The position numbers were made by a program, and so were the translations under genes. Positions 4,152-44,155 of a stretch of DNA of 44,615 nucleotides are shown piece after piece; positions within the stretch are counted from its first letter, which is position 1, and every line of letters begins with the position of its first letter. This DNA comes from a virus. The stretch is taken from positions 1-44,615 of IMG/VR virus record IMGVR_UViG_3300000956_000015, one strand, 5' to 3'. The notes below the pieces were generated by a model that was not told the DNA's origin, made no database searches, and worked only from the letters and a program-made list of their open reading frames with translations.

Positions 4152-4664
4152 TTACCTCAACTCGATCAAAGTGCCGTCGCGGAAAATGCCGGTGGCGCCA
4201 TACGGCACCACGCCATAGCCACCAAAGATGGCCAGCTCGTCATAGGTCAGGGCTCGCGCCACCAGACCGACCTCGACCGCCGGGCCGAGGTCGTAGGGGA
4301 TCGGGCCGAAGCTCGGGTCGGGGATATGCACCGGCACGCGGGTGTAGGTGCCGGGACGGCGCTTGGACAGGCCGGTGACTTCCCACCTGCCAGACTCCGA
4401 ACGACGCAGGCGCACGGCGGTGCCGGCGTCGGAATAGATCAGGTCGCGGCTGTTGGCGGCGATCGGCACGTTGCGCAGCGGCGCGACCACTTCATCGCCG
4501 GTGTTGCTGTCGATGTTCTTCACCCCGACGTCGACGTCACAGCCGTAGGTCAGGGCCAGGCCGTCTGTGACCAGCAGGGTCGGGCGGGTCAGGATGGTGC
4601 CGTCGATCTCGCGCTTGGCTTGGTCGAGTTCGGCCCGGATCAGGTACGTCAGTACGCCAGTCAT
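4152..4664 (-). CDS. Tail-tip protein, unassigned
   Basis: A 170-residue protein with ATG overlapping the stop of the upstream hub gene (ATGA at 4664-4661), so translation is coupled. The central part carries a charged segment and PFGPIPYDLGP-like beta pattern; the C-terminus reads YDELAIFGGYGVVPYGATG, a glycine/tyrosine-rich stretch. I do not recognise the family. Its place directly after the hub-like gene and before the fibre gene suggests a small tail-tip or fibre-attachment protein, but this is inference from position only. Confidence 0.55.
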   Translation of the reverse strand: MTGVLTYLIRAELDQAKREIDGTILTRPTLLVTDGLALTYGCDVDVGVKNIDSNTGDEVVAPLRNVPIAANSRDLIYSDAGTAVRLRRSESGRWEVTGLSKRRPGTYTRVPVHIPDPSFGPIPYDLGPAVEVGLVARALTYDELAIFGGYGVVPYGATGIFRDGTLIELR

Positions 4665-6127
4665 ACCCGGAACCCCTTGATCGAGAGCGTGGCCGGGGCG
4701 CCCCGGGTCAGGTCACGGGAAAAGCCGGTGATGTACAGACGGGAGTTGTCGGGCAGTTGCAGGATGTCGCCGGGTTCCAGGGCCGGGATGTCGACGATGT
4801 CGACGTTCCAGCTGATCGCCGACAGCGAGCGGTAGAGCAGTTCACGCACCGCGATCTGCTGGGCGTGGCCTTCGTTCATCACCAGGTCGGAATCCAGCGA
4901 CTCTTCGAGGCGCATCCACTCCGGGGTGCTGTCGTTGTAGGCCTCGGTGGTGTTGGTTTCGTGGACGTAGTCGTAGGGCTCGCCCCAAATCTCGTAGACC
5001 CCGGTGCCCAGGCTCATGATGATCAGGAAGAACGCCGTCTGCCCGATCATCTCGATCAGCCGGCCTTCCGGGATGGTGGCGACGATGGCCACGCCGTCAG
5101 GGATGGTGGCGGCGTACAGCATCGCCGCCAGCGAGGCGGTGGCCAGCGTCGGCACCCACACCATGGTGGTCACGGTGATCTGGCCGCTGAATTCACTCTT
5201 CTGCTCGTAGTCCTCGTCGCCGACCGGCAGCAAACCGTCATTGACCGAGGCGGTGATCTTCATCCAGGTGTTGTCGGCACGCTGGCGGCGATCTTCCGAC
5301 CAGTACAGCTCACGTTCCTGCTTGAGCTTAAAGAAGCCGGCGGTGATCGATTCGCGGGCCAGCACCTGCGGCTGCTGCAGGCTCTTACTCAGGTTAGGGT
5401 CGAGCCACTTGAGGATCACGCTGGTGACCGGCAGGTTGTTGCGCGAGCCGGTGACTTTCATGGTCTGCTCGGGGGTCATGACCAGGTCCGGGGCGCGCAC
5501 GATGTCGCGTGAGATCGGCTTGAACTTGCCCAGCGCATCGACCCGTGGATCGAGGCCGGCGACCATCAGCAGTTCACTGAGCATGTCCCACGCCGGCAGG
5601 TCGGCCAGTTGGGTATCGCCGTGCACGGTGCTGATGCCGAAGGTCAGGCTGCCCCGGATTTCCGAGGTGGTCAGGCCGATGGCCAGCAGCACGTCGCGGG
5701 CAATGATGCCCAGCTCGCTGCCGGTGGGGTAGATGTTGCCCACCCACTTGGTCGAGCGCCACAGCGGGTTGGAGTCGCGGCTGCGCACGGTCAGGCCCAG
5801 CGCGCGTTCGCCGCGTTCTTCGCGGTAGTCCGACAGGTCCTCGATCTGCCCGTTGAACAAGGGCATGCCATCCAGCTTGACCTGGATCAGGTCGCCGATC
5901 ACCGGCTGCCCCGGGGCATAGAGTTCGTTGTAGAACGCCAGGCCCACGGTCAGGCTGTTCTCGGTCTGGTTGATGTTGTCAGCGTAGGGGCTCAGGTCCT
6001 GGTACGCGGTCGCGGTGCCGGCGATCAGTTGTGCCCACGAGGTCGTGGCCGCCTTGAAATGCAGCAGCTGGACGTTGCGCGCAACGTCCGCACTCGGGTA
6101 GCGGGTAAATGCGAAGTCCGTCTGCAT
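4661..6127 (-). CDS. Tail hub/baseplate-like protein
   Basis: A 488-residue protein starting at ATG 6127, overlapping the upstream stop by one base. The first about 250 residues resemble the hub family that forms the ring at the tail tip (T4 gp27-like): a segment with PGQPVIGDLIQVKLDG and FNGQIEDLSDYREE near residues 70-95, followed by beta-strand and helix alternation. The C-terminal part ends in LEPGDILQLPDNSRLYI and FSRDLTRGAPATLSIKG, also typical of hub proteins. It lies downstream of the tape measure, where hub genes sit in long-tailed phages. The assignment is from pattern and gene order; no catalytic motif was seen. Confidence 0.6.
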   Translation of the reverse strand: MQTDFAFTRYPSADVARNVQLLHFKAATTSWAQLIAGTATAYQDLSPYADNINQTENSLTVGLAFYNELYAPGQPVIGDLIQVKLDGMPLFNGQIEDLSDYREERGERALGLTVRSRDSNPLWRSTKWVGNIYPTGSELGIIARDVLLAIGLTTSEIRGSLTFGISTVHGDTQLADLPAWDMLSELLMVAGLDPRVDALGKFKPISRDIVRAPDLVMTPEQTMKVTGSRNNLPVTSVILKWLDPNLSKSLQQPQVLARESITAGFFKLKQERELYWSEDRRQRADNTWMKITASVNDGLLPVGDEDYEQKSEFSGQITVTTMVWVPTLATASLAAMLYAATIPDGVAIVATIPEGRLIEMIGQTAFFLIIMSLGTGVYEIWGEPYDYVHETNTTEAYNDSTPEWMRLEESLDSDLVMNEGHAQQIAVRELLYRSLSAISWNVDIVDIPALEPGDILQLPDNSRLYITGFSRDLTRGAPATLSIKGFRV

Positions 6128-16232: not shown

Positions 16233-17036
16233 TCAGCTACCGCCGAGGGCGACGAAGCCGGTTGGGTGCGACGGGATGATGTTGGCCAAGTGCGCCAGGT
16301 TGGCCCCGACGCCATACTCAGCCGCCGAGGGCTGCAGGCATTTCAGGGTCATGGTGGTGCTGGCGAAGTCGCTGGCGTTGGTCGCGTACTCCAAGTTGCC
16401 GGAGATCGACGCCTTCCAGAAATTCCACACGATCGGACGACCGCTGGAGTTCTCTTTCTGGATGACGCTGGCCGCCATGTAATTGGTCTGCGACACCGCA
16501 CCGATCGCGACTTCTTTGGCCACGAACACCACCGCACCCACGGCCAGGTCGAACAGCAACGGAGTGCCGGCGTCCAGGGTCAAGGTGTTGGTGGCGATCG
16601 AGGCCACGCGCAGGATCTGCACGGTTTCCGGGGTGCCGACTGGGTAGGCCACGACCAGATCACTGGCCGAAATGCCGGTGGCGCTGGTGACGATCAGGGA
16701 GGTGGCCGCAGCCGACGCTGCCGTACCCACGGTGGTCGCCACGTCGGCAACGGCAGTGGTGATGCCGTCACCGATGGCCATCTTCAGGTTACGACGCGAG
16801 TATTCGCGCAGCACGGTGGCCACCTCGGCGGTCTGACGCACCACCGCAGAGTCCATCAGCTGTTTCGGGAAGCCGCCTTCAAGGTCGACGGATTCCTGGC
16901 CGATGGTCACCGAGCAGCTGTCGACCAGCCCCACGGAGTTGGCTTGCACGAGTTTCATGGCCGAGGTCATCGGGCCGACGCGCAGTTCGGCGGTGCCGAT
17001 CTGGAATTTTTGGGTTACTGGACTGCCCAGGGACAT
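16233..17036 (-). CDS. Major tail tube protein candidate
   Basis: A 267-residue protein starting at ATG 17036 with TAGGAGA upstream. It opens with FQIGTAELRVGPMTSAMKL and GLVDSCSVTIGQESVDLEGG, a pattern of tail tube proteins (two early strands, then a loop with a G-E/D-x-x-x-x-E segment). A middle insertion (about residues 95-170: TSLIVTSATGISASDLVVAY) looks like an extra beta domain. The end reads LEYATNASDFASTTMTLKCL. It is followed by a strong terminator, as expected for a high-copy structural gene. The tube role is supported by position before the chaperone and tape measure and by beta-rich composition. Confidence 0.7.
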   Translation of the reverse strand: MSLGSPVTQKFQIGTAELRVGPMTSAMKLVQANSVGLVDSCSVTIGQESVDLEGGFPKQLMDSAVVRQTAEVATVLREYSRRNLKMAIGDGITTAVADVATTVGTAASAAATSLIVTSATGISASDLVVAYPVGTPETVQILRVASIATNTLTLDAGTPLLFDLAVGAVVFVAKEVAIGAVSQTNYMAASVIQKENSSGRPIVWNFWKASISGNLEYATNASDFASTTMTLKCLQPSAAEYGVGANLAHLANIIPSHPTGFVALGGS

Positions 17037-28458: not shown

Positions 28459-28787
28459 CAGACACCCGAAAAGCGGCGGGTAGCGTAGTCCGAGCATTCC
28501 TGCAGCACCGCCGTCGCCCACAGTTGCGCTGCGTCACCTCCCTCTGCGGCTTTGCGCAAGAACATCTGCATCACCATATGGCTCGCGGCGTACATCGCTT
28601 GTTCCGTTTCCTGGATCTGACGCAGGCTGGCCGAAGGTGGGATGCACCCCACTTGATAGGCCTGGACCATGTCGGCAATGGTCTGTGCGCGATCCAGCAG
28701 GGCGCGCATTTCCCGGTTCCGGCGGGACAGCTCGGGGTCGTTGTTCAAGGTGTCAGCGGCCCGGCGGGCAATGTCTTCGGGGGTCAT
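28458..28787 (-). CDS. Small helical protein downstream of endolysin
   Basis: A 109-residue protein, ATG 28787 with AAGGGA upstream, 24 bp after the endolysin stop. Entirely helical in appearance: MTPEDIARRAADTLNNDPE, LSRRNREMRALLDRAQTIAD and TEQAMYAASHMVMQMFLRK, ending ECSDYATRRFSGV. No membrane segment or signal peptide is visible, so it is neither an obvious holin nor a spanin. Possible roles include a lysis regulator; this is inference only. Confidence 0.5.
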   Translation of the reverse strand: MTPEDIARRAADTLNNDPELSRRNREMRALLDRAQTIADMVQAYQVGCIPPSASLRQIQETEQAMYAASHMVMQMFLRKAAEGGDAAQLWATAVLQECSDYATRRFSGV

Positions 28788-28811
28788 GGGTACGTCCCTT
28801 GTCGGGTGGGC

Positions 28812-29399
28812 TTAGGCGGCGATCTTCACGCGGTTCATGGTCCAGCCAAACATGTACTTCTTGTTCTTCGGCCGGGCCTCGGTGCGCCCGAGATAGTACA
28901 CGGCTTGCTGACTGTTGAGCAGGGCCAGCAGGCACCGTTCACCCGCCGACTTGCGCAGTTTGAGGAACGCATCCAGGGCGATAAAACTCTGCGGGCCCAG
29001 GTCGCCGTCCGGCTTCAGCTGCGGGTAATTGACCTGGCCATCACCGTCAGGATCGTTCAGCGCGTTCAGGGCGCGCTGCAGGAAGGTCGCGGCCTGGCCC
29101 GGCGGCAGGTTGACCTCGATCTCGAACAGCTCGGCCGCCAACTCGCGGCTGCGCAGCAGCACGTTGTTGAAGTGCGGGCGGACGAAATACTCTTCCAGGT
29201 AGATCAGCTCGGCGGTGTCGCGCGGCAGGTCTTTCATCGCGCCCAGGTAGCCGTATTCGCGGGCCACGGCCTCGGTCACGCCCCAGCGCGTGGCGCCGCC
29301 GGCGTCATTCGGATCGATCTTGCCTTGGCCGTCGCCCTCGATGCCGATCAGCTCGTCGATGATCTTGTCGATTTCCGGGGTGCGCGTGATCAGGCCCAT
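28812..29399 (-). CDS. Endolysin (GH108-type muramidase with PG-binding tail)
   Basis: A 195-residue lysozyme-like protein, ATG 29399 overlapping the upstream stop by one base. The glycosidase part shows the family signature: IIDELIGIEGDGQGKIDPND with candidate catalytic Glu21 in the IEG motif, and DAGGATRWGVTEAVA. The C-terminal half (NLPPGQAATFLQRALNALND through DGDLGPQSFIALDAFLKL) matches the peptidoglycan-binding repeat found with GH108 lysins. It cuts the glycan strands of the host wall at the end of infection. No signal peptide was seen, so it needs a holin; none was identified with confidence. Confidence 0.85.
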   Translation of the reverse strand: MGLITRTPEIDKIIDELIGIEGDGQGKIDPNDAGGATRWGVTEAVAREYGYLGAMKDLPRDTAELIYLEEYFVRPHFNNVLLRSRELAAELFEIEVNLPPGQAATFLQRALNALNDPDGDGQVNYPQLKPDGDLGPQSFIALDAFLKLRKSAGERCLLALLNSQQAVYYLGRTEARPKNKKYMFGWTMNRVKIAA

Positions 29400-30752: not shown

Positions 30753-30938
30753 GTGTTGATACTCACCCGCCGTCCCAGCGAAGTCATCATGCTCAACGAT
30801 GACATCCGCATCACCGTGATTGCCGTCTCTGGCATGCAAGTCAAAATCGGCATCGACGCGCCGAAAGACGTGGCCGTGCACCGCGAAGAAATCTATCAGC
30901 GCATCCAGCTGCAAAAAGCCGAAGCCGAAACCGCGTAA
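30753..30938 (+). CDS. csrA: CsrA/RsmA-family translational regulator
   Basis: A 61-residue protein starting with GTG at 30753, so the N-terminus reads MLILTRR exactly as in CsrA/RsmA. The pattern continues with [39 protein letters not shown] and QRIQ, keeping all hallmarks: Leu4, Arg6 and the C-terminal V-x-V-H-R-E-E-I RNA-binding strand with Arg44. Length matches the family (about 60). It is expected to form the swapped dimer that binds GGA in mRNA leaders. Its own leader holds ACAAGGA about 12 nt before the start, as in autoregulated csrA genes. It leads a 10-gene plus-strand operon. Carriage of a CsrA homologue on a phage is unusual and suggests control of host or phage translation. Confidence 0.93.
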
Positions 30939-34567: not shown

Positions 34568-34870
34568 ATGGAACGACGCATCTGGAAATGGCCGCTGAAC
34601 ATGACCTCCCCACAGGATCTGCCCATCCCGCTCGGCGGGCAGTTTCTGACCGTGCAGCTGCAGGACGGCAACCCGCAGGTGTGGTTCCTCTGTGACCCCT
34701 ACGCCCCCGTTGCCCCCCGCCGCCTGGTCATCTACGGCACCGGCCATCCCGTGCCGGAATTCGCAGGCAGCTACCTGGGCACGTTCCAGACCGGGCGGCT
34801 GGTCTGGCACCTCTTCGAAGTCTGGCACCCGAGTTCAAAACCCCTGGAAAACCAAAGGATTGACCTATGA
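34568..34870 (+). CDS. Phage protein of the DUF7352-like kind
   Basis: A 100-residue protein, ATG 34568. It opens WKWPLNMTSPQDLPIPLGGQ and continues FLTVQLQDGNPQVWFLCDP and YGTGHPVPEFAGSYLGTFQT, ending GRLVWHLFEVWH. This 'W-K-F-P-L ... I-P-x-G-x-x-x-L-x-V-Q ... I-Y-G-T-G-H-P' pattern is a common uncharacterised phage family I associate with DUF7352. It overlaps the VWA gene by 4 bp, which suggests co-expression. Function unknown. Confidence 0.7.
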   Translation: MERRIWKWPLNMTSPQDLPIPLGGQFLTVQLQDGNPQVWFLCDPYAPVAPRRLVIYGTGHPVPEFAGSYLGTFQTGRLVWHLFEVWHPSSKPLENQRIDL

Positions 34871-35538
34871 ACACTGAAATTCTCGCGATCATTGATGTCA
34901 GCGGCTCGATGGAGTCGATCAAAACAGACGCCATCGGCGGCTTCAACGCCTTCCTGGCCGACCAGAAAACGGTCGACGGCGAAGCGCGCATGACCCTCGC
35001 ACTGTTCGACAACCAGTACGACCTGCTGTACCAGGGCCGGGCGCTGGCCGAGGCCGAGCCGCTGACCACACAGACCTACGTGCCACGGGGCTCGACCGCG
35101 TTGCTCGATGCGATCGGGCGCACGCTGAATGTACAGGGCGCGCGGATCGAGGCCGAGGGCTGGGCCGAGAAGGTCATCGTCACCGTCCTCACCGATGGCC
35201 AGGAGAACCAGAGCAAGGAATTCACCGCGCCGGTGATCCGCGAAATGGTGGCGGCGGCCGAGGCCAAGGGCTGGGCGTTCGTGTTCCTCGCCGCCAACCA
35301 GGATGCGTTTGCCACGGCGCAGTTCTACGGCAGCAGCGGCGCGCACGCGCAAAGCTTCGCGGCCAACTCGGTGGGCACGGCCCAGGCCTACTCCACCATG
35401 AGCAACACCACCCGCGTGCTACGCGGCGCCGAGTCGGTGCTGCCGACCAGCGACGTAGAGGCCTTAGCCAAGTTCCGGGCCGAGCAGATCGCCAAGGTCA
35501 CCCCGAAACCCCGGGCCAAGGCCCGCAAAGGTGCGTAG
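34867..35538 (+). CDS. VWA-domain protein
   Basis: A 223-residue protein, ATG 34867 coupled to the gene before it. It is a single von Willebrand A domain with a complete MIDAS: DVSGSM at 10-15 (Asp10, Ser12, Ser14), Thr77 in RGSTALLDAI, and Asp110 in VLTDGQEN. A basic tail (VTPKPRAKARKGA) ends it. Such proteins bind Mg2+ and act as protein-interaction modules, often with an ATPase partner, but no MoxR-type ATPase is in the window. It shares its stop base with the start of a HicA-like gene, so the set VWA, HicA-like, XRE is likely one unit. Confidence 0.85.
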   Translation: MNTEILAIIDVSGSMESIKTDAIGGFNAFLADQKTVDGEARMTLALFDNQYDLLYQGRALAEAEPLTTQTYVPRGSTALLDAIGRTLNVQGARIEAEGWAEKVIVTVLTDGQENQSKEFTAPVIREMVAAAEAKGWAFVFLAANQDAFATAQFYGSSGAHAQSFAANSVGTAQAYSTMSNTTRVLRGAESVLPTSDVEALAKFRAEQIAKVTPKPRAKARKGA

Positions 35539-35780: not shown

Positions 35781-36079
35781 ATCTATTGAGCGGGACCAAA
35801 GCAACACCGGAAATCGAGTACCTGGGGCAGTTCCTGTTCGTCCAACGCAAGGCCCTGCGCCTGTCGTTGGACGAGGTGGCCAAGCAGGCCGGCACCTCGA
35901 AATCCTACCTGTGGGAGATCGAGCACGGGCAGGCCTCGCCCTCGTTCATGCTGGTCACCCGCCTGTGCCAGGTCTTGTGCCTGAACATCGGCGGGCTGGC
36001 CGCCGGGGCGCTGAAGGTGGCTGAGCTGTGCGGGGAGGTCGAGCAAGATCCGGGGCAGCTTCATCGCCCCGGGGCTTGA
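35777..36079 (+). CDS. XRE-family transcriptional regulator
   Basis: A 100-residue protein, ATG 35777 overlapping the HicA-like stop by 4 bp. Residues about 20-75 form a Cro/CI helix-turn-helix: FVQRKALRLSLDEVAKQAG, then TSKSYLWEIEHGQASPSFML and VTRLCQVLCLNI. The remaining part is short and acidic. It could be the antitoxin-like partner of the HicA-like protein, a repressor of the replication gene downstream, or the prophage repressor. It is followed by a terminator candidate. Confidence 0.8.
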   Translation: MNLLSGTKATPEIEYLGQFLFVQRKALRLSLDEVAKQAGTSKSYLWEIEHGQASPSFMLVTRLCQVLCLNIGGLAAGALKVAELCGEVEQDPGQLHRPGA

Positions 36080-36160: not shown

Positions 36161-36453
36161 GATGGCTGGAGGCCTTTGTTTTCAAGGGGGGTAGTCTTGA
36201 ATTTCTGGACTAGGTGTTTAGAAACTCAGGACTTTTTACTTGATTAAGTGGCTATTTCCAAGACCTGTGTATAGAATTAGCGGCTATATTCAACGGGATA
36301 GTTTGGAAGTTCAAAGGCTTTATCTTGAAAAGACCATGCTATTTCAACGGTATGGTTCAGAAGTTCTAACGAAACGGTGTGAAAACACCCACTGTTTTCA
36401 ACAGTCGGGGCCGGAATCACGCCATGAATCCAAGAAATAGCTGGAATTCAACG
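36161..36453 (+). repeat. Iteron-like array with 54-bp period before repL
   Basis: An A+T-rich stretch in a G+C-rich genome with no convincing gene. The core TTCAA(C/G) occurs at 36181, 36289, 36343, 36397 and 36447, i.e. at distances of 108, 54, 54 and 50 bp. In the two central copies it extends to GCTAT-ATTCAACGG and GCTATTTCAACGG. A second core GAAGTTC recurs at 36306 and 36360 (54 bp). The phasing (about five helical turns) and location directly upstream of the initiator gene suggest a replication origin. Confidence 0.6.
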
Positions 36454-37073
36454 TGACCGAGAAGAAAAAGTCCTATTACACCTCCCGTGCCGACGTGGTG
36501 CCCACCCGCCATAACCCGTGGGCTGGGGAGCTGGCCCACACGATCAAGAAAGGTCACAAGGTTACGGGTTTCGCTACCTCCAAGCACTCACTGGTCAACC
36601 AGGCCACCGGCGAGGTGTCGGACGACATCGCTCTGGTAGGGGTGCGCAAGGTGGTGGACAAGGAAGAGTTCATCAAATTCTTCGGTGCTGGGATCATGGA
36701 GGTGTTCGAGCTGACCACCCCGGCCAAGGACGTGTTCAAGGCGATCCTGAACGTGTACCTGGACCAGAAAAACCAAGCGGAACAGCTGTACCTGAACTAC
36801 GACGAAATCAAAGAGATTTATGGCTACAGCAAGTCGCCGTCGACCTACTACAACGGCCTGAACGAACTGATCGTGAAGGGTTTCCTTGCCCCCGTGCAGT
36901 TCCGCGAAAGTCACTACTGGGTCAATCCGAACCTGTTCTACAAGGGCGACCGTATTCGCATCGTGCGCGAGTACGTGCGCGCTGGGACCAAGGCGGCCAA
37001 GCAGGTGGAAAAGGAGAACGCTGCGATGAACCAAATGGGTTTGCCGCTCGACACCCCTGCTAACTACGACTAG
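36453..37073 (+). CDS. RepL-like plasmid replication initiator
   Basis: A 206-residue protein starting with GTG at 36453. From about residue 75 it follows the RepL layout: FFGAGIMEVFELTTPAKDVF, a winged-helix core (YLNYDEIKEIYGYSKSPSTY then YNGLNELIVKGFLAPV), and the signature ESHYWVNPNLFYKGDRIRI at 152-170, close to the WVNPNLFxKGD seen in RepL proteins. The N-terminus is basic. RepL initiates replication of small plasmids. The gene lies after phased repeats and is the only replication gene found. This supports a phage-plasmid lifestyle. RepL-group membership is fairly firm; the mode of action is inferred. Confidence 0.8.
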   Translation: MTEKKKSYYTSRADVVPTRHNPWAGELAHTIKKGHKVTGFATSKHSLVNQATGEVSDDIALVGVRKVVDKEEFIKFFGAGIMEVFELTTPAKDVFKAILNVYLDQKNQAEQLYLNYDEIKEIYGYSKSPSTYYNGLNELIVKGFLAPVQFRESHYWVNPNLFYKGDRIRIVREYVRAGTKAAKQVEKENAAMNQMGLPLDTPANYD

Positions 37074-37362
37074 CGGCAAACCCGTTGACCCCGTGGTTCC
37101 CGAACAGCTCAATGTTGTGCGGCCAGCGGGTCAAAAAGATGTCGCACAGCTCTTGACGCAGTACGCCCGCTTCCTCTTCGCTGATGGTCAACCAAACCAA
37201 ATGCCGTCCCAGTGTGCCGAGGCCCATCCCGAGGTACATCAACCCCTCTTCCTCGCTGGTGCTGCTGCCGGCTATCTTGAGCTTGCACAGTCCTAGATCA
37301 GCGAGCAGGGTCTGCTTGTCTTCCATCAGGTCGTTCATTGGGTGGGGGTCAGGCTGGTACAT
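37060..37362 (-). CDS. Small protein convergent with repL, unknown
   Basis: A 100-residue protein with the start placed at ATG 37362 (TGGAAC upstream); the frame could extend to GTG 37425 but lacks a ribosome site there. It reads DKQTLLADLGLCKLKIAGSS, then GLMYLGMGLGTLGRHLVWLT and VLRQELCDIFLTRWPHNI. The gene overlaps the repL 3' end by 14 bp on the opposite strand, so its mRNA would be antisense to repL. It may be a copy-control or accessory protein; no family recognised. Confidence 0.5.
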   Translation of the reverse strand: MYQPDPHPMNDLMEDKQTLLADLGLCKLKIAGSSTSEEEGLMYLGMGLGTLGRHLVWLTISEEEAGVLRQELCDIFLTRWPHNIELFGNHGVNGFAASRS

Positions 37363-37680: not shown

Positions 37681-38454
37681 ATGCTTGGCAATATTGATCC
37701 CCTCCGGGTGCGCGTGTACGCCTGGTCTTCTGTGGTCTACAGCGGCCACGACAATCTCACTCGGACCCGTTTCAGCCAGGTCGTCGATCGCGACAACCGC
37801 GAGGCCGCGCTGGATTTCAGCACCCTGACCCGAGTCATCCTGACCTTCCCCGACACCAGCCCCGTCATGACCTTCGACAGCGGCGAGCTGCTCGACGTCA
37901 TCGACTGGACGCAGGGCGACGGCGTGCTCGGCTTCGACCTGTCGGTTTTCGACATTCCCGAGGGCGAGTACCGCGCCGAACTGGTGGTCTACGACGCCGA
38001 GCACGAGCGCGGCCAGGTGCTGGTCAGCCTCGACTCGCCGGAGGGCGGCCTGCGCCTGCGCGTCGACCAGGTCAACACCAGCGGCAGCACGCCGCCACCA
38101 CTGCCCGATGATTCGTGGCTGGCACTGCGTGACGCCGGCCAGTCGATCTCGTCGCTGCGCGTGGTCTACGAACTCGACGGCGTGGTGTTCAAGCTCGACC
38201 CCACCACCGAACACGTCCATGCGCTGCTCGGCCTGACGGTGACGGCGGCCGACAGCGGGGCGCCGATCAAGGTGCAGCGCGCCGGCACCGTGGACAACGA
38301 CACCTGGGACTGGGCCGAGGGCCTGGTGTTTCTCACCGGCGACGGGGTGCTGACCCAGGTGCCGCCCACCAGCGGCTGGGAAGTGGTGGTGGGCAACGCC
38401 CCCTCGGCCCGCCGCCTCAACCTGACCTTCGATGAACCGGTTTTCTTGGGATAA
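37681..38454 (+). CDS. Beta-rich tail/appendage protein, plus-strand module
   Basis: A 257-residue protein; ATG 37681 is chosen over ATG 37663 because AAGAGGTG lies 6-13 nt before it. The N-terminal half has the strand pattern of upper-baseplate/BppU-like domains: LRVRVYAWSSVVYSG, DNREAALDFSTLTRVILTF, VFDIPEGEYRAELVVYDAEH. The C-terminal half has YELDGVVFKLDPTT and LTVTAADSGAPIKVQRAG, another beta part. It heads a three-gene module that ends in a tail-collar protein, so it is probably an adsorption-related structural protein. Confidence 0.6.
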   Translation: MLGNIDPLRVRVYAWSSVVYSGHDNLTRTRFSQVVDRDNREAALDFSTLTRVILTFPDTSPVMTFDSGELLDVIDWTQGDGVLGFDLSVFDIPEGEYRAELVVYDAEHERGQVLVSLDSPEGGLRLRVDQVNTSGSTPPPLPDDSWLALRDAGQSISSLRVVYELDGVVFKLDPTTEHVHALLGLTVTAADSGAPIKVQRAGTVDNDTWDWAEGLVFLTGDGVLTQVPPTSGWEVVVGNAPSARRLNLTFDEPVFLG

Positions 38455-38466
38455 GGAGCACACAGC

Positions 38467-38982
38467 ATGGCCGTACAAGGATTTCTCACCCGGGTCGCCG
38501 GGAAAACCCTGCAGCTGTTTGGCCTGCAGGCGTCCACCGGCACGGCCGACGCCGGCAAGCTGGTGGCCACCGGCAGCGACGGGCGCCTGGACCTGACCTT
38601 CCTGCCGACCGGGGTCGGGCGCAACCAGGTGGTGTGCCCGGCGACCGAGGCGTTGTCGGCCGGGCGCTACGTCAACCTGTTCAATGACGGTGGCGTGCTC
38701 AGCGCGCGACTGGCCGACAACAGCAACAACCGCGAGGCCTGGGGCTACGTCAAGGACGCGGTGGCGAGCAGCGCGCAGGCTACGGTGTACCGACTGAACA
38801 CGGTCAATGCCGGGCACTCCGGGCTGACCCCCGGGGCCAACTACTGGCTGGGCACGGTGGGTGGGGTGACCGACACGCCACTCGATCCGAGCACCGACAC
38901 CGGCAAGACCGACCAGTTTCTCGGCGTGGCGTTGAGCACCACCGAGCTGGTCACCGCCGAATATGAACCGGTGCGCCTGTAA
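38467..38982 (+). CDS. Fibre-linked or decoration protein
   Basis: A 171-residue protein, ATG 38467 with GGAGC upstream. It starts QGFLTRVAGKTLQLFGLQAS, then GRLDLTFLPTGVG, and carries NQVVCPATEALSAGRYVNLF and YRLNTVNAGHSGLTPGANYW. The LTPGANYWLG and GVALSTTELV segments resemble small beta domains found next to phage fibres (capsid-cement/fibre-connector type). It ends at the ATG of the collar gene. Assignment rests on composition and position. Confidence 0.6.
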   Translation: MAVQGFLTRVAGKTLQLFGLQASTGTADAGKLVATGSDGRLDLTFLPTGVGRNQVVCPATEALSAGRYVNLFNDGGVLSARLADNSNNREAWGYVKDAVASSAQATVYRLNTVNAGHSGLTPGANYWLGTVGGVTDTPLDPSTDTGKTDQFLGVALSTTELVTAEYEPVRL

Positions 38983-39617
38983 TGGCCGCCCGGGCAGCCC
39001 TGGTGCGGGTCGACGGCACCACACAAACCCTGCAGGAGGGAGACACTTTGATCGGCGTGGCCTTGCTCTGTGAAATCAAACTCTGGTCGTTGCCCGTGGC
39101 CCCCGGCGGCTGGGCGTTGTGTGACGGCACCACCTACCTGATCGCCGATTACCCGCAGGCGGGAGCGCTGCTCGGCACCCTCTACGGTGGCGACGGGGTG
39201 ATCACCTTTGGCGTGCCGGATCTGCGCGACCGCGCGCCGCGCGGGGCCGGTGGTGCGCTGGAGCTGGGCGACACCGGCGGCACCGACACGGTGACCCTGG
39301 CCACCGCCAACCTGCCCGCACACAGCCACAGCCTGGGCGCCGGGGCCTCGGCGACGACCACCATCCAGCTGGCCAGCGACCAGACCTCCAACGCCGCCGA
39401 CCTGACGCCGACCAGCACCAACCACTTCATCGGCGGCCTGACCGGTGGCCCGGGCTCGGCGACCATCTGGAAACCTTCGGTGGGTAGCGCGCCGATCACC
39501 CAGGGTGGGGTCACCACCACGGTCAGTGGTAGCACCGAAAGCGCCGGCAGCGGCAGCGCGGTGACGGTGACCAACCCCTACCTGGGGCTGAACTTCATCA
39601 TCGCGCTGGGGGTGTAA
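38982..39617 (+). CDS. Tail-collar domain protein
   Basis: A 211-residue protein, ATG 38982 overlapping the previous stop by one base. It has the tail-collar signature: GGWALCDGTTYLIADYPQAG, LLGTLYGGDGVITFGVPDLR and DRAPRGAG, followed by NLPAHSHSLGAG with the HxH motif, seen in short tail fibre tips. The C-terminal part ends VTNPYLGLNFIIALGV, also typical. This family binds cell-surface glycans. It ends the plus-strand tail module and converges with the minus-strand operon. Family is well supported. Confidence 0.85.
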   Translation: MAARAALVRVDGTTQTLQEGDTLIGVALLCEIKLWSLPVAPGGWALCDGTTYLIADYPQAGALLGTLYGGDGVITFGVPDLRDRAPRGAGGALELGDTGGTDTVTLATANLPAHSHSLGAGASATTTIQLASDQTSNAADLTPTSTNHFIGGLTGGPGSATIWKPSVGSAPITQGGVTTTVSGSTESAGSGSAVTVTNPYLGLNFIIALGV

Positions 39618-39620
39618 GGC

Positions 39621-39863
39621 TCAGCGCGGCCCCTCGCGCTGCGGTCCGCCGGGCTTCGGCCCGGCCACGTCGGCGGCACGGATGCCCGGCCCGACGATCT
39701 CGATCCGCCCCTCGTCAAACCACTGCGCCGGCTCCAGTTTGCCGTCCTTGATCGGCGGCACCAGGTTGTACTGGTCGCAGCCGGTGATGAACTGCGAACG
39801 CCCGGTGATGATGCCTTGAAAACCGGTGACCTTGTCCTTGCCTTCCTTTCCTAACTCGATCAT
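39621..39863 (-). CDS. Small conserved phage protein
   Basis: An 80-residue protein, ATG 39863 with AAGGA 7 nt upstream. It reads LGKEGKDKVTGFQGIITGRS, then ITGCDQYNLVPPIKDGKL and AQWFDEGRIEIVGP. This strand-rich 'G-x-V-K/D-V-T-G-F-x-G-I-x-T ... C-x-Q-Y' pattern is widespread in small phage proteins. It is the last gene of the minus-strand operon and lacks the helical module of the others. Its end holds a hairpin (CAGCGCG/CGCGCTG) that may terminate the convergent plus transcript. Function unknown. Confidence 0.65.
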   Translation of the reverse strand: MIELGKEGKDKVTGFQGIITGRSQFITGCDQYNLVPPIKDGKLEPAQWFDEGRIEIVGPGIRAADVAGPKPGGPQREGPR

Positions 39864-39885: not shown

Positions 39886-40161
39886 TCAGGCGTTCATGGT
39901 ATTGGGCAGGCGCGGCCCGCCCAGCGTTCCCCACTTGCCCGGGTGAACGGCCTCGACGGCCCGGTACAGGGTGAGGATTTCCTGGGCGTGTTCTTCGCCG
40001 TCGATGTGGTGTTCCTGGCGCACGATGGTGAGGGCCGCCAAGTGCATGCTGATCACCAGCGCGGCGGCGTCCTCACTGCTGCCGGGGAGGAAATCCAGTC
40101 CGCCGCGCAGGCGGCGTAGGAGTTCGTCGCGGCCCTGTTCGTTGCGTTCGTCGCGGGTCAT
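39886..40161 (-). CDS. Array protein 11 (shared helical module)
   Basis: A 91-residue protein, ATG 40161 coupled to the previous stop (4-bp overlap). It is helical: RDELLRRLRGGLDFLPGSSE and AALVISMHLAALTIVRQE. The module LTIVRQEHHIDGEEHAQEIL lies near residues 45-65; its alanine is shifted by one compared with the other ten copies, so it is the most diverged. It ends GKWGTLGGPRLPNTMNA, unlike the rest. See the finding on the array. Confidence 0.7.
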   Translation of the reverse strand: MTRDERNEQGRDELLRRLRGGLDFLPGSSEDAAALVISMHLAALTIVRQEHHIDGEEHAQEILTLYRAVEAVHPGKWGTLGGPRLPNTMNA

Positions 40162-40529
40162 TGAATCGTCTCCAAACCGCGCAAGCGGAATTCGTTCATC
40201 GCCCCACGTGCCAACTGCACCAGCTCGTTGTCGGGGCGGGGGTTCTTCAGCACCTGCACAATCACGTCGTTGAGGATCGACAGGTCGACCTTGAGCGCGG
40301 CGTTGAGGCTCGGGTGGGTGACCTGGAAGGCGCGCACCGTGTTTGCGCGCATCTCTTCGGCCTCATCCTCGGTGATGTCGCCATCCCCCCGCATCACGCA
40401 GATGCCACGCATGGCCATGTCGAGCAGGGACACCGCGCCGACCTCTGTGGTGATGGGCATCAGGTTGATGATCGACTGCAGGCCGAGCAGCATCTTCTGT
40501 TTGTGGATGGCGTGGTCTTCAGTGTCCAC
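40158..40529 (-). CDS. Array protein 10 (shared helical module)
   Basis: A 123-residue protein starting with GTG at 40529 (AGAGGTGG upstream). Helical, with the module ICVMRGDGDITEDEAEEMRA near residues 43-62. The N-terminal helix IHKQKMLLGLQSIINLMP resembles those of the neighbouring copies, and a C-terminal extra part (PSLNAALKVDLSILNDVI) follows. It overlaps both neighbours, so it is translated as a unit with them. Confidence 0.7.
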   Translation of the reverse strand: MDTEDHAIHKQKMLLGLQSIINLMPITTEVGAVSLLDMAMRGICVMRGDGDITEDEAEEMRANTVRAFQVTHPSLNAALKVDLSILNDVIVQVLKNPRPDNELVQLARGAMNEFRLRGLETIQ

Positions 40530-40845
40530 GTTTGGCCACCTCTTCAGCGACCGACGCCTCGGCGTGGTCCATCAGCCCGGGGAAACGCTTGTCGTACAGC
40601 GCCTTGATCTCGTCGGCCAGCTTGTTGGCCTGGGCGCCGGTGAGCAGGCCCACCTCGGACATGCAGTTGAGCCGCCCGCGCACCACGCCGAGCAGGAAGG
40701 CCGCGCCGATCGGCGATTCGATCATCTTGATCAGCAGGGCGTTGTCGGTGACCGCCTTGATCTGTTGCTGCATCAGCTCGATCTGCTGCTGGACGGGGTC
40801 GTCGAGGTCGCTGTCATCGGGTACACGGGTCGGGTCGTCAGTCAT
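40519..40845 (-). CDS. Array protein 9 (shared helical module)
   Basis: A 108-residue protein, ATG 40845 with AAGGA 8 nt upstream. An acidic N-terminus is followed by QIELMQQQIKAVTDNALLIK and the most regular copy of the module, LNCMSEVGLLTGAQANKLAD, then EIKALYDKRFPG. This looks like a helical hairpin followed by a short amphipathic helix. It overlaps the next gene by 11 bp. Confidence 0.72.
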   Translation of the reverse strand: MTDDPTRVPDDSDLDDPVQQQIELMQQQIKAVTDNALLIKMIESPIGAAFLLGVVRGRLNCMSEVGLLTGAQANKLADEIKALYDKRFPGLMDHAEASVAEEVAKRGH

Positions 40846-40848
40846 GGT

Positions 40849-41058
40849 TCAAGTCCTTTCGGGTAATGGGGTGCGCGCTCGCGCGGTCAACGTGCCGGCC
40901 TCGCCGGGGCTCAGCGCCTCCTGCTGCCTCAGGCGGTGGATGGTCTTTAGGCACGAGGTCTGCATCGTCCGGTGCATGCTCGGCGGCATCTGCGGCAGCA
41001 GGTCAAGGGCACGGTAGAGGTAGGCCAGCAGGGCTTGGCGGTCGGGGTCATGGCTCAC
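40849..41058 (-). CDS. Array protein 8 (short copy)
   Basis: A 69-residue protein, ATG 41058 coupled to the upstream stop. It is mostly the module itself: LAYLYRALDLLPQMPPSM then IHRLRQQEALSPGEAGTLTA. It is the shortest member and seems to lack the final helix, ending in a Pro/Arg-rich tail (RARTPLPERT). It is 3 bp before the next gene. Confidence 0.68.
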   Translation of the reverse strand: MSHDPDRQALLAYLYRALDLLPQMPPSMHRTMQTSCLKTIHRLRQQEALSPGEAGTLTARARTPLPERT

Positions 41059-41930
41059 TCCGGGAGATTCACGGGGTGAGCGCGGTAGGCGGCGTGCACC
41101 CGGTCGGTCAGCGCTTCGGCCTCGACCGGGTCGATCAGCTGCAACTGCTGCAGGGTGACCACCACGGCGCGGCCGGCCATCAGCAGCCGGTACGCGCCGA
41201 GGCCGGTGGTCTGCGCCGGCAGCTGATCGAGCAGGTGTTCGAGGTGTTGTTGCAGCGCGGTGTGCACCGGGCTGGTGTCGATGGCGGTCAGGGGCGGCTC
41301 TTCCTTAGTAGCACTGCTATTAAATTGTTCGGGGTCGAACCGCACCGGGCCAACCAGGTAGTGGCGGGCCTGTTTCTCGGTAGTGCCCGGCGGCCAGGGC
41401 ACATACAGGTAATCGTGCAGGGTGCGCCCGTCCTCGGTGCGCCCTTCGTGCCAGTCGGCGACCTGCTCATCCAGGCCCGGGTCGGGGTGCGCCCGCAGCG
41501 CCGCAAGGTTGGTCTGCTCCAGCCCCGAGCCGGCGTAGCCGTCGACGTCGGTGTAGGCCTGGTGCCACGCGTGGTTCTCCAGCAGGGCCGCCTCCAGCGT
41601 GGCGATCCGCGCCAGGGCGTCGTGCAGCTGAATGTCGCGGATGACGGCGTCGTCGACCAGCTGTTCCAGCATGCGCTGCAGCGCCGTGTTGGCCTGCTGC
41701 AGGTTGGCAAGGTGGCTCTCGGCGTATTGGGCCTCGTCCAGCGTGCCCACGCCGGGGCCGAGGGGCTTCTGGTAGCGCGCCTTCATCACGGTCAGGCATT
41801 CCCCGTCGCCGCAGTAGGCGTAGTTGGTCAGGCCGAACCACCAGGTGGCCGGCTTGCCGCAGCCGGCATCGCAGGTGCCGGGGTTGGGGGCGTCGTCGGG
41901 GTACTCGAAACCGTCGACGGTCTTGATCAT
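41055..41930 (-). CDS. Array protein 7, fused to a phage Cys/coiled-coil domain
   Basis: A 291-residue protein, ATG 41930 coupled to its upstream neighbour. Residues 20-45 hold four Cys (C20, C24, C40, C45) in a zinc-ribbon-like set; about residues 65-115 are coiled coil; YTDVDGYAGSGLEQTNLAAL near 125-145 is the kind of segment found in Ea22-like phage early proteins. The last about 75 residues are the array module with VVTLQQLQLIDPVEAEALTD, followed by AAYRAHPVNLPE. This is a fusion of a common phage domain to the array module, which suggests the module is an interaction or oligomerisation unit. Confidence 0.75.
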   Translation of the reverse strand: MIKTVDGFEYPDDAPNPGTCDAGCGKPATWWFGLTNYAYCGDGECLTVMKARYQKPLGPGVGTLDEAQYAESHLANLQQANTALQRMLEQLVDDAVIRDIQLHDALARIATLEAALLENHAWHQAYTDVDGYAGSGLEQTNLAALRAHPDPGLDEQVADWHEGRTEDGRTLHDYLYVPWPPGTTEKQARHYLVGPVRFDPEQFNSSATKEEPPLTAIDTSPVHTALQQHLEHLLDQLPAQTTGLGAYRLLMAGRAVVVTLQQLQLIDPVEAEALTDRVHAAYRAHPVNLPE

Positions 41931-42349
41931 GTGTCACCCTCCAGCGGCAACGGCGGCAGTTCGCCGAAGCCCTCGGCCAGCTCCGGGCGGGCGGCCTTGA
42001 GGGCGTTGAGCAGGTTGGCGCTGTGCAGCACCGCCTCGCTGCGGGTCAGCACGTCGAGGGCGCGCAGCTCGTGGATCGACACCAGACACACCCAGCCTTC
42101 CTGCAGCACCTCGTCCTCATGCGCGCTGGCCAGACTCTCGGCCCAGGCGCGCAGCCGGTGTTCCAGGCGCTGCTTGAATTGCCGGGCGGTGGTGGCCGTG
42201 GGGCTGAGCGCCCCGGGGCCGAACAGGGCGGCGTGCAGCAGGCGGATGCGCATCTGCAGTTCCGCCTTGTCGATCCGCAGGTTGTCGACCCACTCTTCCA
42301 GCCCGGCGTTCTTCGCCAGCGCGTCGTACAGGGCGTCGTCGTCACTCAT
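41927..42349 (-). CDS. Array protein 6 (shared helical module)
   Basis: A 140-residue protein; ATG 42349 is coupled to the upstream gene by ATGA, so the longer frame is rejected. It is helical: DDALYDALAKNAGLEEWVDN, LQMRIRLLHAALFGPGAL, ARQFKQRLEHRLRAWAESLA. The module IHELRALDVLTRSEAVLHSA is followed by LLNALKAARPELAEGFGE. It overlaps the next gene by 4 bp. Confidence 0.7.
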   Translation of the reverse strand: MSDDDALYDALAKNAGLEEWVDNLRIDKAELQMRIRLLHAALFGPGALSPTATTARQFKQRLEHRLRAWAESLASAHEDEVLQEGWVCLVSIHELRALDVLTRSEAVLHSANLLNALKAARPELAEGFGELPPLPLEGDT

Positions 42350-42744
42350 GGCGCGTCGTCCATCGGCGCGTACAGCGCGTAATGCCCCAGCACCTGGCCG
42401 AGCAGGTCGGCGGCCTGCTCGGGGTCGAGCCACCGGGCCTGGGTCAGGCGTTCCACGCAGTGCCAGCAGATCACCAGGTTGCGCAGGGCGCTGGCCGGGC
42501 TCTCGGCGTGGCGAAACACCCCCGGCAGGGCCTCCAGCCGCGCCTGCATGCCGGCCACGTACTCGGCGCGTTCCTCGGCCGTGGCCAGTTCGCTGTTGGC
42601 CGGGAACACCCGGCTCACCAAGCGTGCGGCGTCCTTGAACAGCGCCTGCAACTCGGGGTCGAGCGGCCGGGCCTCGAAGCGTGCCTGCAAGGCGTCGAGG
42701 ATGGCGTCGGTGTCGCGGGTGACGATGTCTTCGATGGGGGTCAT
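42346..42744 (-). CDS. Array protein 5 (shared helical module)
   Basis: A 132-residue protein, ATG 42744 coupled by ATGA. N-terminal helices IEDIVTRDTDAILDALQARF and LDPELQALFKDAARLVSRVF precede ICWHCVERLTQARWLDPEQA, i.e. the module VERLTQARWLDPEQAADLLG. It ends in the tripeptide DAP at the stop, as do two neighbours. No catalytic residues stand out. Confidence 0.7.
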   Translation of the reverse strand: MTPIEDIVTRDTDAILDALQARFEARPLDPELQALFKDAARLVSRVFPANSELATAEERAEYVAGMQARLEALPGVFRHAESPASALRNLVICWHCVERLTQARWLDPEQAADLLGQVLGHYALYAPMDDAP

Positions 42745-43016
42745 GGCGCGTCCTCCGGCGGGGTCAGGAAGGCGTTGACGTAACGGCGCTGCAGGCGGAC
42801 CACCAGAATGTCGGCCTCGTACTGGCTGACCAACCGCTGGCCGATCATCTCGTTGACCAGCGTCTGCGCGGCCACCATCAGCGGCACCACCATGGTCTTC
42901 TCGTAGGTGGTCGGCATCAGGTCGAGGACCTTCAGGGTGTGTTCGAGGTGGTCGAGAAACAGGCTGCGCATGCGCACGCGGGTTTCTTCGGGGACGGCCA
43001 ATTCTTCGGCTTTCAT
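42741..43016 (-). CDS. Array protein 4 (shared helical module)
   Basis: A 91-residue protein, ATG 43016 coupled by ATGA. It reads EETRVRMRSLFLDHLEHTLK and TTYEKTMVVPLMVAAQTL, then the module VNEMIGQRLVSQYEADILVV, and ends with LQRRYVNAFLTPPEDAP. Fully helical apart from the ends. The junction bases GACGCGCCATGA are identical at this gene's start, its end and the next junction. Confidence 0.7.
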   Translation of the reverse strand: MKAEELAVPEETRVRMRSLFLDHLEHTLKVLDLMPTTYEKTMVVPLMVAAQTLVNEMIGQRLVSQYEADILVVRLQRRYVNAFLTPPEDAP

Positions 43017-43339
43017 GGCGCGTCCCCCGGTTTGCGACTGGCCGGGTCGTAGTCGACGTGGCCAGTGCAGTGCACGCCGTCCGGCGCCAGCGTCTCGCGC
43101 AGGGTCTGCTGGAACAGCTCGTCGATGTGCAGCGAGGTGGTCACCCGCAGCTCGCCCTGTAGCGACTCGGCAATCTCCGATGACCAGGCCCCGGCCTCGG
43201 TCAGCGCCAGCAGGTAGCCGAGGGCGAGGAAGCGCCGGTTGCTCGCCGCCTCCAGGGTCGGGGCGAGGCTGACAAAGCGGATCTGCTGCCGCGCCATGGC
43301 GTGCAGGCGCGTGCGTTCGTACTCGGTGTATTCAGGCAT
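43013..43339 (-). CDS. Array protein 3 (shared helical module)
   Basis: A 108-residue protein, ATG 43339, overlapping its upstream gene by 8 bp. N-terminal RTRLHAMARQQIRFVSLAPT is followed by RRFLALGYLLALTEAGAW and the module LLALTEAGAWSSEIAESLQG. The rest (ELRVTTSLHIDELFQQTLRE) is a helical extension. It ends DYDPASRKPGDAP. The conserved alanine is kept, but the module's centre differs from the other copies. Confidence 0.68.
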   Translation of the reverse strand: MPEYTEYERTRLHAMARQQIRFVSLAPTLEAASNRRFLALGYLLALTEAGAWSSEIAESLQGELRVTTSLHIDELFQQTLRETLAPDGVHCTGHVDYDPASRKPGDAP

Positions 43340-43682
43340 CGGGGGTGGACTCGGGTTGGGTCAGCACGCGGGGGATCAGCTCGGGACGGTAGCGGGCGTA
43401 CAGCGCCACCAGCTCGCCGATCATGTCCTTGGCCTGGTCCTCGCGCAGCAGTTGGTGGTCGAGCAGCTTGCGCAGCCGGCGGCTGACGCTGTGGTACAGC
43501 ACCACGGCGTAGTCCGCGTCGAGGTCGGGCAGGTCGATCAGGTCGAGCATGTCCGCCGAGTTCTGCGCCATCAGCAGCAGGCGGTAGTCGAGCCGACCTT
43601 GCTCGGTGCCCAGGTCAGGGCTGGCCAGCTGCGCGATCAGGTCGTTGAGGGCGGTGCGGGTCTTGGAGATGTCTTTAGGCAT
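43332..43682 (-). CDS. Array protein 2 (shared helical module)
   Basis: A 116-residue protein; ATG 43682 is used because the upstream gene stops 1 bp before it. It reads KTRTALNDLIAQLASPDLGT, LDYRLLLMAQNSADMLDLID, then the module LRKLLDHQLLREDQAKDMIG and ELVALYARYRPELIPR. The IxxLYxxxxP finish after the module is like that of the 40519 gene. Confidence 0.72.
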   Translation of the reverse strand: MPKDISKTRTALNDLIAQLASPDLGTEQGRLDYRLLLMAQNSADMLDLIDLPDLDADYAVVLYHSVSRRLRKLLDHQLLREDQAKDMIGELVALYARYRPELIPRVLTQPESTPDA

Positions 43683-43683
43683 G

Positions 43684-44004
43684 TCACTGTTCCTCCACAC
43701 GCATGTGCAGGGTCGCCACCATGCCGCGCACCTGGGCACTGTCAAAACGCTGGTCGAGGACCTTGTCGACGAAGGAGGTCAGCAGCAGGTTGAGCATCTG
43801 CCGGGCCTTGTGCGCGTCGTCGGGAACGATCACCCCGACCTGTTGCAGCACGTCGAGGCGGCCCTTGAGGTTCGCCACTTCGACGAGGGCTCGCAACGGG
43901 TCGGTCTGGTCGCACAGGGCGTTGAAGCGGGCGCCGAAGGTGGCGAGCGCGGCCAGCTTGGTGGCGTCGAGGGGCGGGGCGGACGGGTCGGGCGTGTGAT
44001 CCAT
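43684..44004 (-). CDS. Array protein 1, first gene of the operon
   Basis: A 106-residue protein with ATG 44004 and AAGGAAG upstream; the longer frame to 44148 is rejected for lack of a ribosome site. It is helical: LDATKLAALATFGARFNALC, LRALVEVANLKGR, the module LDVLQQVGVIVPDDAHKARQ, then MLNLLLTSFVDKVLDQRFDS. It heads the 12-gene operon, so the promoter should lie in the non-coding end region. Confidence 0.7.
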   Translation of the reverse strand: MDHTPDPSAPPLDATKLAALATFGARFNALCDQTDPLRALVEVANLKGRLDVLQQVGVIVPDDAHKARQMLNLLLTSFVDKVLDQRFDSAQVRGMVATLHMRVEEQ

Positions 44005-44155
44005 GGCACTTCCTTGCGGATGGTGGAGCGGGAATAGGCGGCGGCCCTGATCAAGCGTCGAGGGGGGCTCGACCGGGCTGCCGGGGCGCGGCACCAACGT
44101 GCAGCGTCGTTGCTGGTACGTGCCGCGCCGGAGGTAACGGTAGCACACGGGTGGA
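44005..44155 (-). promoter_or_regulatory. Leader of the array operon
   Basis: About 150 bp upstream of the first array gene, G+C-rich and without a convincing promoter. It separates the operon from the G-skewed region. No small gene was seen. Confidence 0.3.

Follow-up and report, generated by a model that had tools for sequence, protein, structure and literature searches.

A tandem array of small, fast-changing proteins of mostly shared ancestry in a group of probable phage-plasmids

Array genes and their shared module

The virus record IMGVR_UViG_3300000956_000015 of IMG/VR was analysed over its entire length of 44,615 bases, which is referred to as the window. Between positions 39886 and 44004 it carries a tandem array of eleven genes on the minus strand, which are named here by their lower coordinate (Table 1). 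An earlier reading of the sequence (the original prediction) had placed eleven genes at this site, and all of them were confirmed. Neighbouring genes mostly overlap by 4, 8 or 11 nucleotides (nt), with gaps spanning −11 to 22 nt; gene 41927 starts at position 42349 and gene 43332 at position 43682. The encoded proteins are 69–140 amino acids (aa) long, except for one fusion of 291 aa. The majority are soluble and acidic, and long, very hydrophobic stretches are absent according to hydropathy. With small, unannotated proteins encoded in the same direction at close spacing, the locus qualifies as a directon.

The array members were claimed to share a block of 20 residues that aligns without gaps. 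An unbiased motif search, performed without prior alignment on the eleven proteins (41055 by its C-terminal part only), placed nine of them in exactly this block, with a leave-one-out score of 81.9 bits. This value is far above chance, since 40 shuffled sets scored 13 ± 8 bits (maximum 31) and 40 control sets, each made up of eleven further small proteins from a related phage, 14 ± 10 bits (maximum 43). Proteins 39886 and 43013 were placed outside the block. Position 15 was found to be Ala in ten of the eleven proteins, as claimed. The enrichment of E, Q or D at position 14 was likewise observed, although in ten proteins and not in nine as counted before. When leave-one-out hidden Markov models were built from single sequences, 6 of 11 members ranked first among 3301.

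Ortholog groups (OGs) built from the relatives were compared with hhalign to obtain profile similarities. Similarity within the array was higher than to other phage genes, with the exception of 43684. A probability of at least 20 was reached by 12 of 91 array–array pairs, compared to 0 of 770 array–control pairs. Compared with the combined profile, nine of ten groups left out in turn were recovered with 63–98% probability (39886, 84; 40158, 94; 40519, 63; 40849, 92; C-terminus of 41055, 95; 42346, 71; 43332, 97). The combined profile did not detect 42741 (1.5), which is available as a single sequence; against the C-terminal group of 41055 this protein reached 64, with the block in register. 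The values for 41927 (47) and 43013 (26) are above every control family; the best control yielded 21.5 and is a solitary gene that is itself a suspected relative, while the next yielded 1.3. For 43684 a probability of 2.0 was obtained, with the block in register by motif search. The profile links are thus firm for eight of the eleven members and weaker for 41927 and 43013, while 43684 is linked by the block alone. Taken together, most array members share ancestry.

Two members were modelled with AlphaFold2, and both are predicted to be helical bundles that agree in the register of the block. The model of 43332 (27 aligned sequences) has a predicted local distance difference test score (pLDDT) of 88.7 and a predicted template modelling score (pTM) of 0.76, with helices at residues 3–18, 27–48, 56–75, 81–98 and 100–107. 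That of 43013 (7 sequences) has a pLDDT of 84.0 and a pTM of 0.67, with helices at residues 6–23, 29–48 and 54–84. The block starts at residue 70 in 43332 and at residue 43 in 43013. In both models the end of helix 2 coincides with block position 6 and the beginning of helix 3 with position 12, and the block would therefore be the turn between these helices. The module is predicted to be a three-helix bundle of approximately 65 residues, in which helices 2 and 3 form a hairpin that holds the block.

A structure search of the PDB and a viral fold library with the models gave no match with an E value below 0.001. Weak Foldseek matches were to MIT domains, ribosomal protein bS20, ribosome recycling factor and S23/Avd-like proteins (Xcc0516, 2gsc), of which 2gsc and bS20 match both models. 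The likeness to these bundles lies in the general up-and-down topology; all E values are above 0.1, there is no sequence relationship, and a transfer of function would be baseless.

The array proteins showed no significant match in Pfam, NCBIfam, PHROGs or PDB sequences. Searches of sequence and fold libraries thus bear out that the array belongs to no named family, and the protein family appears to be new relative to the libraries searched. A Cas11e match (E value 4.5e-4) was seen in one of 27 aligned fragments, but did not recur in separate scans of twenty, mostly full-length, proteins and was therefore dropped as chance. Weak PDB matches to a fatty-acid binding protein and the Ctk3 CID were not significant. 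The short C-terminal domain SHOCT (PF09851), which has a similar-looking short helical hairpin motif 'L..G.lT.eEf', was also considered, but none of 27 members matched it at E ≤ 1; the array module is a larger bundle. No description of such an array was found in literature searches.

Table 1 Features of the array locus in the window
Feature	Position	Strand	Description
Promoter/operator-like element GTGCTACCGT	44137..44146	-	Array-specific; TGnTAnnnT, extended -10-like
Conserved 5' leader with ribosome-binding site (CCACCATCCGCAAGGA...)	44005..44036	-	Upstream of array gene 1
Array gene 1	43684..44004	-	106 aa, OG11; in the window phage, the first gene to follow the conserved leader
Array gene 2	43332..43682	-	116 aa, OG10; module and additional N-terminal helix
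Array gene 3	43013..43339	-	108 aa, OG9; sole member in all six genomes
Array gene 4	42741..43016	-	91 aa, OG8; window phage only
Array gene 5	42346..42744	-	132 aa, OG7; module C-terminal
Array gene 6	41927..42349	-	140 aa, OG6; chimera, coiled-coil piece then module
Array gene 7	41055..41930	-	291 aa; Zn-ribbon-like/coiled-coil (1-179) and module OG5 (216-291)
Array gene 8	40849..41058	-	69 aa, OG4; shortest copy
Array gene 9	40519..40845	-	108 aa, OG3
Array gene 10	40158..40529	-	123 aa, OG2
Array gene 11	39886..40161	-	91 aa, OG1
Last operon gene in the window phage	39621..39863	-	80 aa, PHROG 16275; module absent
Probable twelfth member	37060..37338	-	92 aa; a tail-gene cassette on the plus strand lies between it and the array

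The array in related phages

The window has no terminal repeats and is part of a phage; it encodes a terminase, portal, head protease, major head protein, tape measure and endolysin. With its terminase as query, 20 other contigs were matched, 11 of them with 84–87% identity. The contigs of the relatives G002 (about 81.6 kb) and G005 (about 84.3 kb) have redundant ends of 127 and 120 bases, respectively, and are therefore probably complete. The nearest isolated phages by terminase are the Pseudomonas phages Lana and PMBT3 (approximately 32% identity). A plasmid search with the terminase yielded only a relative with 26% identity.

The comparison of the array covers six genomes, namely the window (W), G002, G003, G005, G007 and G011. 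In relatives with 84–87% identical terminases the array is located at the same place, has about 5 to 9 members and is mostly colinear. The prediction that a family of small proteins has expanded and diversified locally within a single operon is supported. Between 5 and 11 module genes are present per genome, and OG9 (the 43013 family) is the sole group common to all six. From first to last, the order is OG11-10-9-8-7-6-Zn/5-4-3-2-1 in the window, 10-12-13-11-9-Zn-2-1-14 in G003, 12-13-10-11-9-15-7-5-1-14 in G005, 12-13-11-9-9-Zn-4-3 in G007 and 12-13-9-5-1-14 in both G002 and G011. The module was not demonstrated in OG14, OG15 and the free Zn protein. Gene order is mostly conserved, except for OG10, while content is variable; G007 features a tandem duplicate of OG9.

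The fusion of one copy to a zinc/coiled-coil domain, which had also been proposed, was found in 41055, and its parts stand separately in relatives. A free Zn/coiled-coil protein is encoded in G003 and G007 (4270–5037 in the latter), and a free OG5 module in G005 (78537–78779), G002 and G011. The N-terminal 36 aa of 41927 match the coiled coil of the Zn protein of G007 (53% by blastp over 36 aa). In 42346 two domain matches were obtained with an iterated profile, and this protein may carry a second, N-terminal module. Identities between orthologs are 51–70% for 43684 (G003, G005 and G007), 64% for 40849 (G007), 62% for 40158 (G003) and 47–54% for 39886 (five genomes).

Rates of nonsynonymous (dN) and synonymous (dS) substitution were determined for pairs of genes that are each other's best match between any two of five genomes. 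The 46 array pairs have a median dN/dS of 0.67 (dN 0.29, dS 0.41), compared to 0.28 (dN 0.16, dS 0.53) for 347 pairs of size-matched other genes. Since dN is higher in the array and dS is not, the excess sits in dN and is not an artefact of aligning unrelated genes. The formal p value of 3e-19 should not be taken literally, because ortholog pairs are not independent. The array proteins thus evolve far more quickly than the remainder of the virus. Between G002 and G011, OG1 has a dN of 0.27 and a dS of 0.51, while its four array neighbours have at most 0.05 and 0.15, which suggests a likely exchange or allele replacement of this single gene. Overall, members have been gained, lost, fused and probably allele-replaced between close relatives.

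Isolated phages searched at the DNA and protein level gave no match to the array. A pattern-based scan of GTDB genomes (one for each of 84,980 species), which reaches close relatives only, found no array protein. Scans of IMG/VR with three family alignments, with the same reach, returned the known contigs and one fragment of 4,993 bases, the shared part of which matches the window; an IMG/VR search with 40519 as query did not find relatives. Distant phage relatives (43–62% terminase identity) gave no array member in a search without positive control, in which most records were fragments.

Upstream element and genomic setting

The motif GTGCTA[AC]CGT occurs at ten sites in the six genomes and nowhere else in those contigs. 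Every site lies on the coding strand and precedes the first gene after the leader by 128–290 nt, and shuffled genomes contain 0.05–0.4 sites per genome. The motif is invariant in the leader alignment; an additional copy in G002 reads GTGCTATCGT. Its relation to an extended −10 element (TGnTAnnnT) is one of resemblance only, and a sigma-70 scan upstream of the array yielded one weak site (9/12). The leader is 86–89% identical over 36 nt in five of the six genomes (W, G002, G003, G005 and G011), and precedes OG11 in the window and OG12 in the other genomes. An exact-match scan of IMG/VR with leader and motif yielded no contig beyond those in which the array had already been seen.

In the relatives, the end of the array adjoins a convergent gene that is replication-initiator-like by position. 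The corresponding gene of the window (36453–37073, plus strand) is winged-helix/initiator-like in most relatives, while the window copy is initiator-like by position only. In G003 the array-adjacent site is occupied by a Rep_3 initiator (68275–68985, minus strand; E value 1e-31), and replication genes have apparently been swapped at this one site between G003 and the other relatives. ParA is encoded in four of the six records (G002, G003, G005 and G007). In G005, a ParA-like partition ATPase and a serine recombinase of the invertase/resolvase type were located at 57246–57887 and 73041–73676, both on the minus strand. A tyrosine integrase was found in none of the six records, although this type of serine recombinase is encoded. 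The group combines morphogenesis genes (terminase, portal, capsid and tape measure) with plasmid replication and partition genes (Rep_3 and ParA), the combination by which phage-plasmids are recognised. Based on the initiator-like or Rep_3 neighbour, ParA and the lack of a tyrosine integrase, a phage-plasmid lifestyle is likely for the group, which has no isolated member; it is not proven for the window fragment, which itself features neither ParA nor Rep_3.

The gene 39621 is in last position in G007 as well. Its product shares 50% identity with a Pseudomonas phage PMBT3 protein, the gene of which lies among those for replication and nucleotide metabolism; this PMBT3 region contains replication genes and no array. 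In four relatives the array is followed by a conserved PHROG 6158 protein (E value 5e-7), which was not called in the window (G005 79143–79508, G003 69159–69497, G002 28509–28922 and G011 16407–16820).

The family profile was also run against 139 non-array proteins encoded by the window and G005. Protein 37060 was second best with a probability of 10.6 over 55 columns in register, while the third yielded 1.5. It is read as a detached array member because it lies on the same strand beyond the plus-strand cassette. This suggestive but not proven evidence would make 37060 probably a twelfth member and the array larger than first stated. The top of the scan (17.1%) was the product of a solitary short gene of G005 (50400–50606, plus strand), whose C-terminal hairpin weakly matches the module and which may be a stand-alone relative. 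The cassette between the array and 37060 (37681–39617, plus strand) consists of three tail-type genes, two of which match PHROG 4368 and one a Collar domain. It is absent from the equivalent place in array-bearing relatives and is possibly a movable receptor-binding cassette.

Two further genes were observed in the window and its relatives. A phage-encoded CsrA-like regulator (PF02599) is located at about 30757–30938 on the plus strand of the window (E value 2e-23, first codon TTG) and at 1255–1449 on the minus strand of G005 (E value 6e-25). A VWA-like protein (PHROG 7371, E value 7e-58; window 34867–35538, plus strand) is present in all close relatives.

Proposed function and alternatives

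The original prediction regarded the array as an interaction-based system serving anti-defence, regulation or structural assembly. An interaction-based role fits the modelled fold, a small soluble helical bundle without catalytic signature. A regulator set is unsupported, as no helix-turn-helix (HTH) was found in the modelled fold or in library searches. A structural assembly is unlikely, as membership is variable and the array is separate from the morphogenesis module. Among the three options, anti-defence fits best.

Our leading explanation, which we hold tentatively, is that a set of small, co-expressed binding proteins arose by tandem duplication in a probable phage-plasmid and serves as a bank directed at host targets that vary, probably for anti-defence. 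One small helical domain would have been duplicated in tandem within a single accessory locus, and the operon would be switched on as a unit at phage entry or establishment. Each protein would bind a different host protein, most likely a part of an antiviral defence or a taken-over factor, by means of variable helix faces. Members would be kept, exchanged or lost as host targets shift. Anti-defence or host takeover appears likeliest because runs of small, soluble, unannotated proteins match the anti-CRISPR pattern and because content varies between close relatives, as it should if different hosts present different targets. It is possible, albeit rather doubtful, that the array represents a counter-defence locus of a new kind, in which a scaffold duplicated in place became a promoter-controlled inhibitor bank that is updated by duplication, fusion and allele exchange.

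Anti-CRISPR (Acr) directons are viral runs of small, unannotated, co-directional and closely spaced genes with a mean length of approximately 104 aa, and an HTH (Aca) gene is part of the same directon for about 40% of known Acrs (PMC7391736). The array resembles them in these gene features and in its fast turnover, but differs in that its 11–12 members are mostly paralogs of one domain, with neither an Aca-type HTH nor Acr homology. With the anti-defence genes of plasmid leading regions (PMC11541004) it shares the organisation as an accessory cluster on an element with a probable plasmid state. It differs from them in that a conjugation or leading region was not identified and the genes are unrelated by library searches. 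The system is thus closest to small-gene anti-defence clusters, and distinct in consisting of paralogs of one domain.

Several points weigh against the proposed bank of binding proteins. Anti-defence clusters usually combine unrelated families and not paralogs. Homology to known inhibitors or anti-defence proteins is absent for the array members in PHROGs, Pfam, NCBIfam and PDB sequences. No HTH (Aca) gene was found in the array operon of the six genomes; an HTH gene of the window, at 35786, is located outside the operon on the other strand. The raised dN/dS is equally compatible with relaxed constraint, and about six distinct genomes were sampled, with ortholog pairs that are not independent.

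The array might instead consist of accessory genes of the lysogenic or plasmid state that provide superinfection exclusion, host defence or other traits during plasmid maintenance, which we consider unlikely. The convergent initiator-like gene next to the array (Rep_3 in G003), ParA in four of six records and the lack of a tyrosine integrase in all six are consistent with such a role. However, the plasmid state is itself inferred, no defence family was matched, and hydropathy indicated no long membrane segment. A plasmid-state role would be compatible with the bank of binding proteins.

Also unlikely is that the members form a hetero-oligomer, such as a takeover, regulatory or plasmid-maintenance complex with the paralogs as co-evolving subunits. 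Paralogous helical bundles often pair together, the genes form one overlapping operon with largely conserved order, and the possible second module of 42346 would suit such an assembly. Nevertheless, membership varies from 5 to 11 and most members are fast-changing. The presence of just one member in all genomes makes a fixed complex less likely.

Weakly constrained paralogs of little function at a duplication-prone locus, to which a dN/dS near 1 in several pairs would point, are improbable. Most dN/dS values calculated over whole genes are lower than 1, and there are recurrent hydrophobic positions. Relaxed constraint alone would be insufficient, because open frames, promoter element, leader and order are conserved across genomes at a dS of about 0.4. 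A function in the virion or in tail assembly, suggested by the tail cassette adjoining the array in the window phage, is very improbable, given that the cassette is missing at the same place in array-bearing relatives, that in the complete genome G005 the array and the morphogenesis module are far apart and that array membership varies.

The element and the leader are markers of the array that can be used to locate further members. If the proposed bank of binding proteins is true, it would show a phage building new inhibitors from a single scaffold, and the whole family could be screened together. The array itself offers a compact system in which to study how genes duplicate, diverge and recombine under conflict.

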